Assembly (NCBI GenBank): GCA_902781655.1
Contig: CACZJZ010000010.1
Coordinates: 37,711 to 101,710 of the forward strand
From: an uncultured Lachnospiraceae bacterium
Lineage (GTDB): Bacteria; Bacillota; Clostridia; Lachnospirales; Lachnospiraceae
Direction: 5' to 3'
DNA: 64,000 bases
Of this stretch, positions 34,470-60,139 are shown piece by piece. Under the pieces are notes generated by a model. It had not been told where the DNA came from and did not search any database. It saw only the letters and a list, made by a program, of their open reading frames with translations. The translations under genes and the position numbers were made by a program. Numbering within the stretch: position 1 is the stretch's first letter; every line of letters begins with the position of its first letter.

Positions 34470-35720
34470 ATGTATTCACTGGAGCTTTTGAAGAGAGAAG
34501 ACCCGGAAATCGCGCAGGCTATTTCGGACGAAATGCAGAGGCAGAACGATCATCTGGAGCTGATTGCCTCGGAAAACTGGGTGAGCAAGGCTGTCATGGC
34601 GGCGATGGGAAGCCCGCTGACGAATAAGTACGCGGAAGGATATCCGGGACACCGGTATTACGGCGGATGTCAGTATATCGATGTCGTGGAGGAACTGGCC
34701 AGAGAACGTGCCAAAAAGCTCTTCGGATGCTCCTATGCCAATGTTCAGCCTCATTCCGGCGCGCAGGCCAATCTGGCTGTGGAATTTGCTATTCTGAAGC
34801 CGGGCGATACTCTCATGGGCATGGATCTTAACATGGGCGGCCATTTGACTCATGGCAGCAGCGCGAATATTTCCGGCACCTATTTCCACGTCGTTCCCTA
34901 CGGGGTGGATGAAAACGGGTACCTTGATTACGACAGGCTGATGGAGCTTGCCATGGAGAATCGCCCGAAGCTGATCATCGCTGGCGCTTCCGCCTATGCA
35001 AGGACAATCGATTTCACCAAATTCCGGGAGGTGGCAGATGCCTGCGGCGCTGTGCTGATGGCGGACATCGCGCATATTGCGGGATTGGTCGCCACCGGAC
35101 TTCATCCAAGTCCGATCGGCGTCGCAGACATCGTCACGACAACGACGCACAAGACGCTGCGCGGGCCCCGCGGCGGCATGATCCTTGCCAATGAGGACGC
35201 CGCAAAGGAATTCAAGTTGAACAAGGCGGTATTCCCAGGCATCCAGGGCGGCCCGCTGGAGCATGTAATCGCAGGCAAGGCGGTTTGCTTCAAGGAAGAT
35301 CTGCAGCCGGAATTCAGAACCTACTCCGAACAGATTTTGAAAAACGCGCAGGCTCTCTGCAGCAGTCTGATGAAGAGGGGGGTCAAAATTGTCTCTGATG
35401 GCACCGACAATCATCTGATGGTCATCGATCTCACTAATTTTGACGAGACCGGCAAGGAAGTGGAGAAGTGGCTGGACGACGCGCACATCACCGTCAACAA
35501 AGAGACGATTCCGAATGAAACGCGCAGCCCGTTTGTGACATCAGGACTTCGTCTCGGTACGCCGGCGGTGACGACGAGAGGACTGAAGGAAGCGGATATG
35601 GATGACCTGGCGGAGGCAATCTCGCTTGTGATCCGGAACCGCGAGGAAGGTATCGGGCCTGCCAGAGCAATTGTTGCGCAGATTACGGCAAAATATCCGC
35701 TCGATCTGACGGAAAACTAA
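34470..35720 (+). CDS. glyA: Serine hydroxymethyltransferase
   Basis: 416 residues, full length. Converts serine plus tetrahydrofolate to glycine plus methylene-THF, in the cytoplasm. Conserved: [44 protein letters not shown], and the PLP lysine in [14 protein letters not shown] (about Lys228). ATG preceded by GGGAGG. Followed by a strong bidirectional terminator. Monocistronic in this window. Confidence 0.97.
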
Positions 35721-35883: not shown

Positions 35884-36534
35884 TCAATAGCCGAGTGATT
35901 CCCCGATCAGGAAAACCTTGATTCTTCCGACACCGCCGCTGCTTCTTCTGGTAATCACGATCTGATTGCATATGCTGTCAGGGGTCTGGCAGTCGCAGCA
36001 GTAGCCGACCTTTGTGCAGGGATTCGGCCTCGAGAGACGTATGTTGTTGGCCGGCGCAGCAGTGTTCCTCGCGCGCAGGATGGCAGAATTGAGATCGGGC
36101 GTAACCTTGTCCATGGATGCGAGAACGAATACATGGCTGGGACCGGTGATCAGGCAGGCAACTCTGCCTCCCATGCCATCTATGTTGACCAGCTGGCCAT
36201 CACGCGACAGGGCGTTCGTGCTCATGAGGTAATAATCGCAGAGCGTCTGCTCTGCGTATATCGCCCGTTTTTCCGCAGGCGTCTTTGCGGTGTCGCGGTC
36301 TTTCACAATATACGGACCCTTCTTAACGGCGTCCAGCAGCCCCATTTCCACAAGCGTCATACTGCCGCCCCAGGTGACGGAGGAACCCTCCGGGATTTGG
36401 GAGAGAACTGCCTTCAATGCTTCCTCTGCGGTCTCGTGATATTCGGCATCCATGCCGCGCATCTTCAAATTTTTGATCACGGCCTGTGACAGGAGCTCTC
36501 TGGTTTGATCTATTGGTTTGCTATTCTGTTCCAT
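35884..36534 (-). CDS. LUD domain protein (LutC/YkgG-like)
   Basis: 216 residues reading leftward; the ATG complement ends at 36534 with AGGGAGGATC upstream. Conserved LUD features: EGSSVTWGGSMTLVEMGLLD, YLMSTNALSRDGQLVNIDGM, GGRVACLITGPSHVFVLASM, and a C-terminal Cys-rich stretch NPCTKVGYCCDCQTPDSICN. Single-domain LUD proteins of this clostridial type differ from the lactate-oxidation LutB/LutC partners and have no assigned reaction; no LutA or LutB is adjacent. Ends in the shared terminator with glyA. Confidence 0.88.
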   Translation of the reverse strand: MEQNSKPIDQTRELLSQAVIKNLKMRGMDAEYHETAEEALKAVLSQIPEGSSVTWGGSMTLVEMGLLDAVKKGPYIVKDRDTAKTPAEKRAIYAEQTLCDYYLMSTNALSRDGQLVNIDGMGGRVACLITGPSHVFVLASMDKVTPDLNSAILRARNTAAPANNIRLSRPNPCTKVGYCCDCQTPDSICNQIVITRRSSGGVGRIKVFLIGESLGY

Positions 36535-36746
36535 ATGTGATCCTCCCTATCTTTTTATTTTCGTTGGGACGGAATGCGGCGGACCCGGATGACTGGATAT
36601 TTATATTTTACCATTTCGGAGGATTTTTTCTATTTTTTCTGCATGGATGTCAATTTCCTTTAACGTCAGTCAGACTGAACACAACGAAAGATGAAGTTAG
36701 CAATTTTGCGAATATTAAGACAATAATATAAATGAAGGCAAAATTA

Positions 36747-36775
36747 TTGACAACTATTGAGCGAGATGATATATT
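36747..36775 (+). promoter_or_regulatory. Near-consensus sigma-A promoter of a non-coding transcript
   Basis: TTGACA at 36747-36752, exactly 17 bases, TATATT at 36770-36775. This is among the best promoters in the window, yet no open reading frame with a ribosome-binding site follows for more than 800 bp. Predicted start is near 36782. Confidence 0.75.
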
Positions 36776-36781
36776 GTAATC

Positions 36782-37321
36782 AACAAAGAAACAGAGAAAG
36801 AAATCGATCCCAGAGAAATGGATTGAGAGTTGCAAATCACATGCAAAACTGCTGGACGGGGCAGGAAAACCAATGGGCTGAGTAATGGAACTGTTCACTT
36901 GCAGAGCTGCATAAAAGGGCAGCAGGACCAATGTACAGAATTTAATTCCTTTACCGTATGCGGAGGTTCCGCAAATTTGATCAGGGAGGTACACTCCACC
37001 GGAATAGGCAGAGTTCCAAAGATCTATAATTTGAAAGGAATATGATTTCTCTTTGAAAAGTGAAATGTCAGTCGGCGACGAATGGTGACGAAGTAAGGAC
37101 TGATACAAGTGATCAGATTCCATCATCACATGTACGAAGTACGAAAAAGGGTGCAAAGACGAATCATAAGCAGGTTTCAGAGAGTAATCGAAAAGCATCA
37201 GGTAGCCCCTGAAGAATTTACATAAGGGGTATGGAGGTGCAGTCCATTGGACAATGAACCGGACAGCATGATATAGGAGAGACTGTTGCGACGAGAAAAC
37301 AACAGTCTCTCTTATTTTTTT
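36782..37321 (+). ncRNA. Putative large structured non-coding RNA (~540 nt)
   Basis: A stand-alone transcription unit bounded by the promoter at 36747-36775 and the intrinsic terminator at 37277-37321. All plus-strand frames carry frequent stops. Local stems are visible: GCGGA-GGT-TCCGC (36960-36972), TCAGTC / GACTGA (37068-37073 with 37098-37103), GTAC-GAA-GTAC (37132-37142) and CCCCT / AGGGG (37206-37210 with 37225-37229). The pentamer ACGAA recurs five times in 37078-37162. I do not recognise tmRNA, RNase P, 6S or SRP RNA hallmarks. Size and isolation resemble ornate large RNAs such as ROOL or OLE, but I cannot match a consensus. Confidence 0.55.
37277..37321 (+). terminator. Intrinsic terminator of the non-coding transcript
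   Basis: Perfect 12-bp stem GAGAGACTGTTG / CAACAGTCTCTC with an 11-base loop, then TTATTTTTTT. Directly beyond it (37328-37341) is the 14-base palindrome AAGCAAGCTTGCTT. Confidence 0.9.
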
Positions 37322-37361: not shown

Positions 37362-37390
37362 TTGAAATCGGTTTTGTCGCGGTCTATAAT
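37362..37390 (+). promoter_or_regulatory. Sigma-A promoter for rho
   Basis: TTGAAA (37362-37367), 17 bases, perfect TATAAT (37385-37390). Gives a ~215-nt rho leader containing a hairpin at 37423-37446. Confidence 0.75.
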
Positions 37391-37613: not shown

Positions 37614-39650
37614 ATGACGAAGGATCAGTATGAGTCACTGCAGCTCTCTGCACTCCGGGACATTGCAAAACGCCGTGGAATGAAGGGCGTTTCGGCGCTG
37701 CGCAAGGCAGGGCTGATTGATGCGATGATGGAGCAGGACCGCAAAGAAGCGATTGCCAACATGGAGGCACGCAAAGCCCAGCGGACGGAACAAGCCGCAG
37801 AAACTGTAAGAGAGGAGCCGGACAGGAGCGGGCAGGAGCATCAGGCAAAGGAGGAACGGGCAGAGGGACACGCGCATACCAGAACACAGAGACATTCCTC
37901 CGGAGCAGCGGCTGCACGGACTGCCAGAGGACGCAGCATAAAGAAGGAGGACGCGAAGGCGAAGGCCAAGGAGACTGAGGAGCCCGGAGAAAGAGAAGAT
38001 GCCGTCGGACGAACACAGGGGAAGAACAGAAGACCTTTCCGCAAGCAAATGCAGGGCCGTCGGGATACACAGAGCGTGCAGGAAACAGCCTCCTCTCAGC
38101 AGAACGGAACGGTGCGGCCCCAGGAGGCGGGTACTGAGAGGACAGCCCGCGCAGCCCGGCGTACAGACAATCAGGCGAGAAATAACGATCAGCTTCGGAA
38201 AAATAATCTGACGCGCCCGAACGAATCGCGGCGTCAGGATGAGCCGCCGCGCCAGGACAGCCCGCGCCGGCCCGATGTGCAGGCGCGCGATGACGGCCAG
38301 CGGCGTCAGGAAGGACTGACGCGTCAGAATGATCCGTCTTTTACGGGCGAACCTGCGCGGCAAAGCGATCTGACCCGCCAGAACGAGGGAATTCGCCAGG
38401 CGGAGGCGCCCCGGCAGAGAGAGTATCCCATACCCGCGCCTCGTCCCAATGCGGTGAGGGGAGCGCTTCGCCCGGACACACCTATTTTGCATAAGGACGA
38501 GATCAACGCTGAGCTAGATAGCGGACAGACGGCGCATGGCATTCTCGAAGTGATGCCGGACGGCTATGGCTTTATCCGCTGTGCGAATTATCTGCCAGGC
38601 GACAACGATGTCTATGTGGCGCCGAGCCAGATCAGACGGTTTAATCTGAAGACCGGGGACATAGTCACGGGAAACATCCGCGTCAGAACGTCCAGCGAGA
38701 AGTTCAGCGCACTACTTTATGTGACCTCAGTCAATAACCTTCCACCCGATGAAGCGACAAAACGCTATAATTTTGAAGATATGACACCGATCTTCCCGGA
38801 CGAGAGAATCCGCCTCGAGAAGCCGGGTGCCGGTCTGGCCATGCGCATCATGGATCTGATGTGCCCGATCGGCAAGGGACAGCGCGGCATGATTGTGTCG
38901 CCGCCGAAGGCTGGAAAGACCACACTGCTCAAGGAAGTAGCGAAGTCTGTCAAGGCGAATCATCCGGAGATCCATCTCATTATCCTGCTGATCGATGAAC
39001 GTCCCGAGGAAGTGACTGATATCAAAGAGGCGATTCAGGGGCCGAACATCGAGGTGATCTACTCTACCTTCGACGAGACACCGGAGCATCACAAGCGTGT
39101 TTCTGAGATGGTGATCGAGCGGGCCAGAAGACTGGTGGAGCATCGGCAGGATGTCATGATCCTGCTGGATTCGATCACCAGACTCACCAGGGCCTATAAC
39201 CTCACAGAGCCCTCCAGCGGCCGTACACTGTCCGGCGGTCTCGATCCGGCGGCGCTGCACATGCCGAAGCGCTTCTTCGGCGCAGCCCGCAATATGAGAG
39301 AGGGCGGGTCGCTCACCATCCTCGCCACGGCGCTCATCGAAACCGGGAGCAAGATGGACGATGTCGTGTACGAGGAATTCAAGGGAACCGGCAACATGGA
39401 GATGGTGCTGGACCGCAGACTTTCCGAGCGCCGCATCTTCCCGGCTATCGACATACAGCGCTCCGGCACACGCCGCGACGACCTGCTCCTCACGCCGGAG
39501 GAACTGGAATCAATCAATATGATACGAAGGGCCTTCAACAGCATGAAGGCTGACGACGCGGTGGACCGTGTCATCGATCTTTTCGCCCGCACGCGCAGCA
39601 ACGGAGAATTCGTGCAGATGGTAAAGAAAATCAACTGGTCATTTAACTGA
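37614..39650 (+). CDS. rho: Transcription termination factor Rho with long disordered N-terminal insert
   Basis: 678 residues against ~420 for E. coli Rho. Residues ~1-55 are a Rho N-terminal SAP-like domain (LQLSALRDIAKRRGMKGVSA). Residues ~55-285 are low complexity, rich in Arg, Gln, Asn, Asp, Pro and Lys, with loose repeats of the form LTRQNDP / LTRQNEG / PRRPDVQ. The RNA-binding cold-shock domain begins near 300 (HGILEVMPDGYGFIRCANYL) and the ATPase near 375, with Walker A PPKAGKTTLLKEVA, LIDERPEEVTD and GSKMDDVVYEEFKGTGN. AGGAG precedes the ATG. The hexameric helicase ends transcription; the insert probably adds RNA binding or condensate formation, as shown for some other long Rho proteins. 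Confidence 0.95.
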   Translation: MTKDQYESLQLSALRDIAKRRGMKGVSALRKAGLIDAMMEQDRKEAIANMEARKAQRTEQAAETVREEPDRSGQEHQAKEERAEGHAHTRTQRHSSGAAAARTARGRSIKKEDAKAKAKETEEPGEREDAVGRTQGKNRRPFRKQMQGRRDTQSVQETASSQQNGTVRPQEAGTERTARAARRTDNQARNNDQLRKNNLTRPNESRRQDEPPRQDSPRRPDVQARDDGQRRQEGLTRQNDPSFTGEPARQSDLTRQNEGIRQAEAPRQREYPIPAPRPNAVRGALRPDTPILHKDEINAELDSGQTAHGILEVMPDGYGFIRCANYLPGDNDVYVAPSQIRRFNLKTGDIVTGNIRVRTSSEKFSALLYVTSVNNLPPDEATKRYNFEDMTPIFPDERIRLEKPGAGLAMRIMDLMCPIGKGQRGMIVSPPKAGKTTLLKEVAKSVKANHPEIHLIILLIDERPEEVTDIKEAIQGPNIEVIYSTFDETPEHHKRVSEMVIERARRLVEHRQDVMILLDSITRLTRAYNLTEPSSGRTLSGGLDPAALHMPKRFFGAARNMREGGSLTILATALIETGSKMDDVVYEEFKGTGNMEMVLDRRLSERRIFPAIDIQRSGTRRDDLLLTPEELESINMIRRAFNSMKADDAVDRVIDLFARTRSNGEFVQMVKKINWSFN

Positions 39651-58369: not shown

Positions 58370-60139
58370 GTGCGCCCAGCCAAGGGTGTGTAGCCTAACC
58401 GGTGGGAATCCGGTATATACAAGGCCTAACCAGCCAGATATTAGCGAGTCTTGGGATGGTGCCAGTAATGACACCTGACAAGCGTAGACAGCAAGCAAGT
58501 AGGGTCGTTAAAGCGATTCGTCTTAACTGGTGCGGAAGGCAACATCGTGCAGCTCGACATGGTGAGAACTGCATGGCACTGCGGGGTCAGAGAGCCGATC
58601 ATGCTTGACAACGAGGACACACATCAACTGGGGAGAGCCTGCTACCTCTCACAAAAGAGTATGACATACCAACTGAAAAGGGAGGATGTCAAACGGGTGG
58701 CAGGCAGTCGGATAACTTCATAGTACCAATGAAGTCGGGTAATGCCGACAGAGGGAAGGAGGTTACACAGTAACGATCTCTCTGAGGACACATCATCCGT
58801 ACTCAGGGACGGAGGAAATGATGGGAACGAAATTAGAGAGAATAGCAGAGATTTCAGCGGTAACAAGAAGACCCATATTCACAAGTCTGTACCACCTTAT
58901 AAATGAAGACCTGCTGAAAGCATGTCACAGGGAACTGGACGGAAAGAAGGCAGTCGGAATAGATAAGGTGACCAAAGAGGAATACGGGAAGCAACTTGAC
59001 AGCAACATAGCTGACCTTGTGAAACGCCTAAAGAATAAATCGTACAAGCCACTCCCACAAAATAGTGCAGTTGGCACTAAAGAAGATACTGGAAGCGATT
59101 TATGAGCCAAGGTTTCTGAATTGTATGTACGGTTTCAGGCCTAAGCGGGGATGCCATGAAGCGGTCAAAGAAGTTTATCAACGGGTATCACACGGCAAGA
59201 TAAACTTTATTGTGGATGCCGATATAAAAGGCTTCTTCGATCATATCGACCATGAATGGATGATGAAATTCCTGGAATGGCATATCAAAGACCCGAACAT
59301 CCTGTGGCTGGTGCGGAAGTACCTAAAAGCGGGAGTGATGATCGACGGGAAATACGAGGATACGGAAGAGGGAACCATACAGGGTGGAAATATCAGCCCA
59401 ACGCTGGCAAACATATACATGCACAACGTACTGACACTTTGGTTCAAGCTGGTGATTCAGAAAGAGGCAAGAGGCGAATGCTTTCTTGTAAACTATGCGG
59501 ATGATTTTGTGGCGGGGTTCCAATACAAATCGGACGCAGAACACTACTATGCGGCGCTCAAAGAACGCATGGCGAAGTTCAACCTCGAACTGGAAGACAG
59601 TAAGAGCAGGCTGATTGAATTCGGGCGTTATGCGGAGCAAAACCGCAAGGCAAGAGGTTTGGGAAAGCCGGAGACATTTGACTTTCTTGGATTTACCTTC
59701 TACTACGGTAAGAGCAGGAAAGGCTATCCGTGGCCCAAAGTCAAAACATCGCGGAAGAAGTTTGAGAAGAAGCTGAAAGAATTCAAGGAGTGGCTCTACG
59801 ATAACAAGAACCAGCCCGCAAAAGACATAGTGAAACAACTAAATGTGAAACTGGTTGGCTACTACCGGTATTATGGGGTGACATTTAACGTCTACAAGCT
59901 TAGTGCATTCCTACATCGGGTACAGCAGTTTCTTTTCAAAGCGATGAACAGACGAGGATGCAGACGCACATACACATGGAACGGATTTGTTGACATGCTG
60001 AAGTGCTATCCACTTGCCAAGCCCAAAGTCTACTATCCGCTGTATTAAAGCGAATGTTACTGTGAGGAGCCGGATGCGGGAAAGCCGCACGTCCGGATCT
60101 GTGAGGGGCTAAGGGTGGAGAGCCCTTAGTCTACTCGAC
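58370..60139 (+). mobile_element. Group II intron (1770 bp) inserted in the GH2 gene
   Basis: 5' end GTGCGCCCAGCCAAGGGTG is the classical bacterial group II start. Domain V is at about 60067-60101 (GAGCCGGATGCGGGAAAG then CCGCACGTCCGGATCTG), and domain VI ends CTACTCGAC at 60139. Boundaries are supported by frame restoration in the host gene. The 5' exon ends CCGGTT; AACTGG at about 58525 and AACCGG at 58397 could pair with it as EBS1. The intron encodes a damaged reverse transcriptase/maturase (58818-60048) and would need help in trans to splice or move. Confidence 0.92.
58818..60048 (+). pseudogene. Group II intron reverse transcriptase/maturase with internal deletion
   Basis: Start ATG at 58818 behind GGAGGA. 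The first ~80 residues end at KRLKNKSYKPLPQ, and sequence resumes in another frame as LALKKILEAIYEPRFLNCMY at ~59065. About 25 residues holding the RT motif 0/1 boundary (the PKGNGKxRPL-type segment) are lost. The rest is intact: VDADIKGFFDHIDHEWMM, TIQGGNISPTLANIYMH, the YADD active site near 59491-59505, LDFLGFTFYYGKS-like FDFLGFTFYYGK and a maturase X domain. No endonuclease domain is visible. Confidence 0.85.

Follow-up and report, generated by a model that had tools for sequence, protein, structure and literature searches.

A widespread RNA family of Lachnospiraceae with start-less Shine-Dalgarno-like modules and a mini-ORF that abuts the terminator

The stretch of DNA analysed here (the window; 64,000 nucleotides from an uncultured Lachnospiraceae bacterium) holds, among conventional genes, a transcription unit of roughly 540 nt that lacks a long plus-strand ORF. 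Upstream of the unit lie glyA, encoding serine hydroxymethyltransferase (34470..35720, plus strand; Pfam SHMT), and a gene for a LUD-domain protein (35884..36534, minus strand; Pfam LUD_dom), and downstream follows the gene for the transcription terminator Rho (37614..39650, plus strand; Pfam Rho_RNA_bind), which has a promoter-like site of its own (TTGAAA-17-TATAAT, 37362-37390, plus strand). Further along the window there is a group II intron (58405-60139, plus strand), recognized by Rfam matches to D1-D4-6 (58405-58596) and Intron_gpII (60065-60139). The unit itself opens with a sigma-70-type promoter on the plus strand (36747..36775), in which TTGACA (36747-36752) and TATATT (36770-36775) are separated by a 17-nt spacer with TG before the -10 box and together match the consensus at 11 of 12 positions. 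It closes with an intrinsic terminator (37277..37321, plus strand) made of a perfect 12-bp stem (37277-37288 with 37300-37311) and seven T residues (37315-37321), the loop of which carries GACGAGAA (37290-37297, plus strand). A terminator scan of the window that allows loops of up to 8 does not list this terminator, the loop of which is 11 long. Promoter and terminator are both as an earlier note on this DNA had described them. With the start placed about 7 nt past the -10 box and the end at the T run, the RNA gene would occupy 36783..37321 on the plus strand, and this architecture predicts an RNA transcribed from its own strong promoter to its own terminator. The window's own genome holds one copy (G000, contig C10).

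A protein-coding unit was rejected for either strand, with no conserved frame of ordinary length and no Pfam match. The longest stop-free runs in the plus-strand frames are 33, 51 and 72 codons, in keeping with the stops that the earlier note had reported in all three. On the minus strand an ORF of 182 codons (36650-37198) spans the unit; Pfam recognizes nothing in it at E 0.001, and in the homologous stretch of one relative (G006) no overlying ORF of at least 120 aa is present. The RNA folds better than its shuffled versions (z -5.2, or z -3.7 for 36783-37270, which omits the terminator). A region at 37072..37163 (plus strand), partly retained in the relative G028, contains GCGACGAA/GTGACGAAG together with the clustered ACGAA pentamers noticed earlier, all five of which were found on the plus strand (37078, 37088, 37134, 37141 and 37159, thus within the 86 nt of 37078-37163). 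When the RNA was shuffled 2000 times by mononucleotides, no such cluster arose, the pentamer having been picked post hoc. Across the window as a whole there is no enrichment of ACGAA (102 observed vs 115 expected), nor does it rank with the most enriched words of the family described below, which do include GUAC(A) and UGACGAGA. An instance of the GUAC word, GUAC-GAA-GUAC, stands at 37132..37142 (plus strand) and could form a short hairpin.

Two elements of the unit proved to be of wider occurrence. The first is a start-less ribosome-binding-like module at 36974..37013 (plus strand), with GGGAGGT at 36984-36990 and the core GGTACACTCCACCGGAA at 36988-37004. It was identified through an alignment (A1) of 46 modules of 40 nt and the sequence-only model (R1) built from it, which matches it at E 8.3e-6; no other R1 match in that genome falls below E 0.09. 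The second is a terminal mini-ORF (37247..37276, plus strand) that begins with TTG, encodes MDNEPDSMI in nine codons and ends with TAG directly before the terminator stem at 37277; a Shine-Dalgarno sequence, GGAGG, precedes it (37233..37237, plus strand), and it is identical in G006 (L078). The description of the locus as a unit without an ORF therefore holds for long ORFs, and overlooked this conserved short one.

A DNA search of 61 genomes (the window's own, 36 of the same genus and 24 from other families of the order) found the unit in five: the window's own, G006, in which the whole unit is 93% identical, and the divergent G028 (65% identity over 413 columns), G032 and G017. The terminator stem of G028 differs in sequence and its GACGAGAA loop is retained. 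The core common to all five, GGUACNNNCCACCGGAA, was matched with one mismatch allowed in 31 of 61 genomes of the genus; when these matches were read, at least 14 genomes proved to have a non-coding copy, and other matches lay in long open frames. The exact core recurred among 392 genomes of the order only in the window and in one coding gene. In a collection of 84,980 species a wider pattern hit 48 loci, of which 43 were kept, all of them titled Lachnospiraceae or other Bacillota save one named only ‘uncultured bacterium’; five (L053, L072, L075, L086, L099) and likewise two viral matches (L101, L102) were dropped as coding-looking or without the architecture.

The model R1, the E-values of which are rough and which was fed in part by genomes that were then scanned, matched 134 of 299 Lachnospiraceae genomes (one per genus almost throughout) at E 0.01 and 103 at E 1e-4 or better; some of the 31 weaker matches fit the Shine-Dalgarno part only and may be ordinary gene starts. 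Across the order 36 of 295 genomes were matched, 33 of them within the family and three outside, one of the latter (L209) being an ordinary gene start. Across the class there were matches in 9 of 196 genomes at E 0.01, four within Lachnospiraceae and five outside; of these five, L136-L138 have the architecture by eye, L139 yielded no module on rescan and L142 looks coding. Rfam 15 gave nothing for the window unit at gathering score, and relaxing the threshold to E 5 brought five matches, four of them over the terminator, all chance-like; in 20 relatives Rfam identified only a T-box and two tRNAs, none positioned inside the RNA. One relative searched with its flanks against plasmids had no match. 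With a large conserved family of homologues recovered and no Rfam match within the RNA, the earlier suggestion of a possible new class turns out to be the best reading: comparison of the predicted genes shows that the window unit belongs to a new RNA family, one widespread in Lachnospiraceae.

The anatomy of this family was examined in 115 loci, that is, 114 relatives and the window, with the duplicates L077/L107 and L126/L145 included. In 90 of the 115 loci the first module is preceded, at a distance of no more than 420 nt, by a promoter-like site that matches at least 11 of 12 consensus positions; for random positions in the same loci, which fell mostly inside genes, the count was 7 of 198. 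A terminator-like hairpin lies downstream in 95 of the 115, vs 62 of 198 controls, as judged by a lax detector applied to slightly different search ranges. Over 100 loci the RNA has a median length of 408 nt (10-90% range 257-636), some relatives being only about 200-300 nt long, and a median purine content of 64%. One module-like site above threshold is present in 87 of the 115 loci and two to four are present in 28, commonly with a spacing of 51-58 nt, a second gene copy supplying part of these sites in L043 and L168. In L043 (G432:C27, minus strand) the RNA gene is complete in both of two tandem copies, which are separated by 852 nt and have the mini-ORFs MDNEY and MDSEY.

Outside the modules and mini-ORFs of 98 representatives, GUAC occurs 134 times vs 48.5 expected and UGACGAGA 18 times vs 0.7 expected. 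One locus, L110, is unusually long, measuring by eye more than 900 nt between promoter and terminator, and has many GUAC words, often GUACRRAAGA-like, between module and mini-ORF. The anatomy sometimes includes a hairpin with the loop GACGAGAAA. The GACGAGAA loop was counted 26 times over the 115 loci, in 19 cases atop a stem of four or more pairs; in the window this loop caps the terminator. In the 15 of the 26 occurrences that could be aligned (the stems of the other 11 differ in register or length), 94.4% of pair cells are standard pairs and 26 cells are doubly changed vs 7.3 in shuffles, a value reached in 0 of 500 and one that clearly exceeds slid controls as well, while the 9-nt loop is invariant. 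The earlier proposal of a large structured RNA is thus borne out in so far as one hairpin of the family clearly covaries, and not as regards an extensive common fold: what is conserved is a set of short islands in a purine-rich sequence of variable length.

A further shared feature is found at the 3' end. Typically, a Shine-Dalgarno sequence is followed by an ATG, TTG or GTG start and a frame of usually 5-10 codons, the stop of which abuts the terminator stem. This arrangement was found in 70 of the 103 loci with a detected terminator, flush being defined as -3 to +4 bases, with a tolerance of 4 on the stem start. In 500 shuffles of the upstream bases, under equal tolerance, the mean was 2.8 and the maximum 8. 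At other strong terminators of these loci a flush mini-ORF was present in 3 of 122 cases. Under the strict rule 33 of the 103 loci have none; a looser search gave a candidate in 95 of the 115 loci, from which, with four dropped and five hand-corrected, a set of 91 peptides was tallied. The base preceding TG after SD..CCN is A in 48, T in 48, C in 4 and G in 3 cases, and an in-frame stop follows within nine codons at 90 of 103 start-containing sites, vs 47 and 43 in the other two frames. The 11 nearest pairs of loci (at least 82% identity over at least 279 nt) differ in their mini-ORFs by five synonymous, one stop-to-stop and one nonsynonymous change. Taken over all 34 nearest pairs, many of which are so distant that their frames can hardly be compared, 8 differ in length and the 26 scored hold 29 nonsynonymous, 12 synonymous and 7 stop-to-stop changes along with 6 start changes, all between TTG and ATG. 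Given that one start codon replaces another, that stops are retained and that the differences within close pairs are mainly synonymous, the mini-ORF is very probably translated. The predicted peptide, on the other hand, is too poorly conserved to imply a single product. Among the 91 peptides 63 are distinct, with lengths of 5-10 residues and one of 15; Asp is second in 66, and the commonest are MDSIV (8) and MDEIV (6).

The upstream module resembles the initiation region of the mini-ORF. Its consensus, AAAGGAGGUACNNNCCACCRRAA, comprises a strong Shine-Dalgarno-like site with CCR in the position of the start codon; the A1 modules were gathered with strict core patterns, so the conservation of the core is partly a product of selection. 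Calculated with an assumed 16S 3' tail rather than the sequence of the host genome, the median anti-Shine-Dalgarno duplex is -13.9 kcal/mol for 136 modules and -11.6 kcal/mol for the mini-ORF sites, vs -10.05 kcal/mol (best -19.3) for 42 long ORFs of the window at their best start. The module sites are strong and within the range of genes, with 3.7% of them matching the strongest tenth of the ORFs. An rRNA pattern, probably an incorrect one, had no match in 41 genomes. Binding of 30S subunits does not account for the conservation of UACNNNCCACC past the Shine-Dalgarno part, for which a weak hairpin or a protein site is possible. The module's predicted self-hairpin is weak (median -3.45 kcal/mol vs -1.4 when shuffled), and covariation of a GGU/ACC hairpin within the module is unconvincing, the third pair being mostly uncompensated (T,A in 69 start-less modules, T,T in 27, A,A in 5, T,G in 2 and A,T in 1).

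The reading of the start-less module as part of a coded peptide (frame RYxPP..stop) was rejected when the loci were read by eye, as there is no in-frame upstream start, a few first modules excepted (L069, L088, L147), and the frame signal is weak beyond the motif-fixed UAA (88 of 142 modules). Six loci (L116, L119, L152, L174, L108, L121) have upstream modules that do carry two- or three-codon frames (MK, MR, MRK, MKT, TTG-AAA-AAG, MG, MC), reminiscent of bar-type minigenes. Outside Lachnospiraceae, L136-L138 follow the same plan with modules that contain start codons. As read by eye, L136 (G858, another family of the class) has three near-identical tandem modules, ATG TTC CGG TAA (MFR-stop), followed by MTLDIKNEQK-stop and a terminator, and L137 and L138 have MAN-stop or MRN-stop and then MLDIKSDQK-stop or MLDIKSEQK-stop.

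One may ask whether such an RNA would act on the gene that follows it. Among 103 loci, the gene that follows shares the strand of the RNA in 56, has the opposite one in 33 and could not be assigned in 14; a cis role is unlikely as a general rule because the next gene is opposite in 33 of the 89 determinable loci. On the simplest reading, the RNA would be self-contained, engage ribosomes and act in trans. Our tentative prediction, for which the case falls somewhat short of even, is that the RNA keeps 30S subunits or ribosomes parked by means of its modules and its translated mini-ORF. One or more start-less modules would pair strongly with the 3' tail of 16S rRNA and offer CCR instead of a start codon, presumably holding 30S subunits, while ribosomes would translate the mini-ORF, usually of 5-10 codons, and stop flush with the terminator hairpin. 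The parked ribosomes may protect the RNA from exonucleases, and the RNA may titrate or report free initiation capacity; the GACGAGAAA hairpin and the GUAC words would bind a putative partner. A bolder version, in which start-less ribosome traps, often in tandem, and the terminator-flush mini-ORF make up a highly expressed RNA device that parks or counts initiating ribosomes, is in our view doubtful. If that were true, the device would buffer or report translation capacity across Lachnospiraceae, a dominant group in the gut and the rumen, and other Clostridia would have versions of it that contain start codons. Whatever its role, an RNA gene with near-consensus promoters in 34-45% of sampled Lachnospiraceae genomes has so far been without an Rfam family.

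The strongest competing explanation, possible if on the whole unlikely, is that the RNA is a protein sponge, in which modules, GUAC words and GACGAGAAA hairpins bind a putative RNA-binding protein, the mini-ORF doing no more than stabilise the 3' end. It would account for the module conservation that extends past the Shine-Dalgarno part in a set collected with a strict core pattern, for the excess of GUAC and UGACGAGA, for the covarying hairpin with its invariant loop and for the loci with two to four module-like sites (28 of 115, with L043 and L168 partly a second gene copy). It is weakened by the GACGAGAA loop being found no more than 26 times in the 115 loci and by CsrA, the obvious candidate, showing no association. 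Alternatively, the RNA might be the messenger of a short acidic peptide (such as MDEIV or MDNEPDSMI) that is itself the active product, for instance a signal. The recurrence of MD[ES]IV in 14 of 91 peptides, the bias of close pairs to synonymous changes and the MLDIKSEQK-like peptides of the three relatives outside the family speak for this, yet with sequence and length varying so widely, and with a leader of hundreds of bases and start-less modules for which a peptide mRNA has no need, we regard it as improbable.

A slightly poorer case can be made for attenuation, whereby a ribosome on the mini-ORF would cover the 5' arm of the terminator and cause read-through into the next gene, here rho. 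The flush stop codons would suit such a mechanism, as would rho lying 300 nt downstream in the window and the rho-like ORFs downstream in G006 and G028. However, gene contexts differ between genomes, over a third of the determinable loci have a next gene of opposite orientation and rho is preceded by a promoter-like site of its own (37362); as a general rule a cis-acting leader or attenuator was rejected, a conserved same-strand downstream gene not being found.

CsrB/RsmZ-type sponges carry short purine-rich modules repeated on an independent RNA, and so does the window family. An RNA titrating CsrA/RsmE would fit the AAGGA/GGA words of the modules and the CsrA gene in the window's genome. As to repeated GGA in hairpin loops that bind CsrA, the modules contain AAGGA and their predicted hairpin is weak. 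The module does not appear to be the known CsrA hairpin, and its second GGA is often RAA. Moreover, 69 of the 134 R1-positive genomes lack a detectable CsrA gene, which is present in 65 of the 134 vs 89 of 165 R1-negative genomes (Fisher p 0.36), or, counting only R1 matches at E 1e-4 or better, in 54 of 103 vs 100 of 196 (p 0.90). For this absent association a CsrA sponge was rejected and is very improbable.

The earlier note had likened the unit to OLE, ROOL and GOLLD, which PMC12286853 describes as independent bacterial RNA units of several hundred nt and of poorly understood function. Although the window family shares this size and independence, membership as a divergent OLE, ROOL or GOLLD RNA was rejected and can be set aside as next to inconceivable, as their covariance models match neither the window unit nor 20 relatives at gathering score and are absent from the unit's five matches up to E 5, some relatives are merely about 200-300 nt long, and the family, with its variable length and terminal mini-ORF, consists of sequence islands rather than a demonstrated extensive fold.

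Other known systems share single traits with the family. The dual-function small RNAs SgrS/SgrT and SR1/SR1P carry an internal short ORF; the window RNA is likewise independent and has a short frame, the evidence for its translation being comparative, but this frame is usually of 5-10 codons, variable in its peptide and usually flush with the terminator, and to our knowledge those RNAs have no counterpart of the start-less modules. The type III antitoxin RNA ToxI consists of tandem short repeats before a terminator and is directly followed by a toxN-type gene. Tandem short repeats ahead of a terminator are also seen in the window family, in which, however, the repeat sequence differs, mini-ORFs are present and the gene that follows in the window is rho, not a toxin gene; in 33 of 89 determinable loci the following gene even has the opposite orientation. 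STAB-SD elements are gene-less Shine-Dalgarno sequences that stabilise RNA, and bar-type minigenes are translated frames of two or three codons; gene-less Shine-Dalgarno sites and tiny frames occur here too, but STAB-SD and bar are single elements in other transcripts, whereas the window family is a dedicated conserved RNA. We know of no RNA class that combines start-less Shine-Dalgarno modules with a tiny frame locked to a terminator.

Searches of the open-licence literature of PubMed Central turned up no description of such an RNA. In Clostridium phytofermentans, PMC5171806 describes a probable non-coding unit downstream of cphy2658 that is the strongest start site on cellulose and corn stover. 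PMC8040213 presents 3161 candidate structured RNAs from human microbiomes, and these may include a fragment of the RNA family described here. Finally, one full member of the family (L185, IMGVR_UViG_2802429519_000001), in which a terminal mini-ORF follows two start-less modules, lies on a contig catalogued as viral, which is possibly the flank of a prophage.
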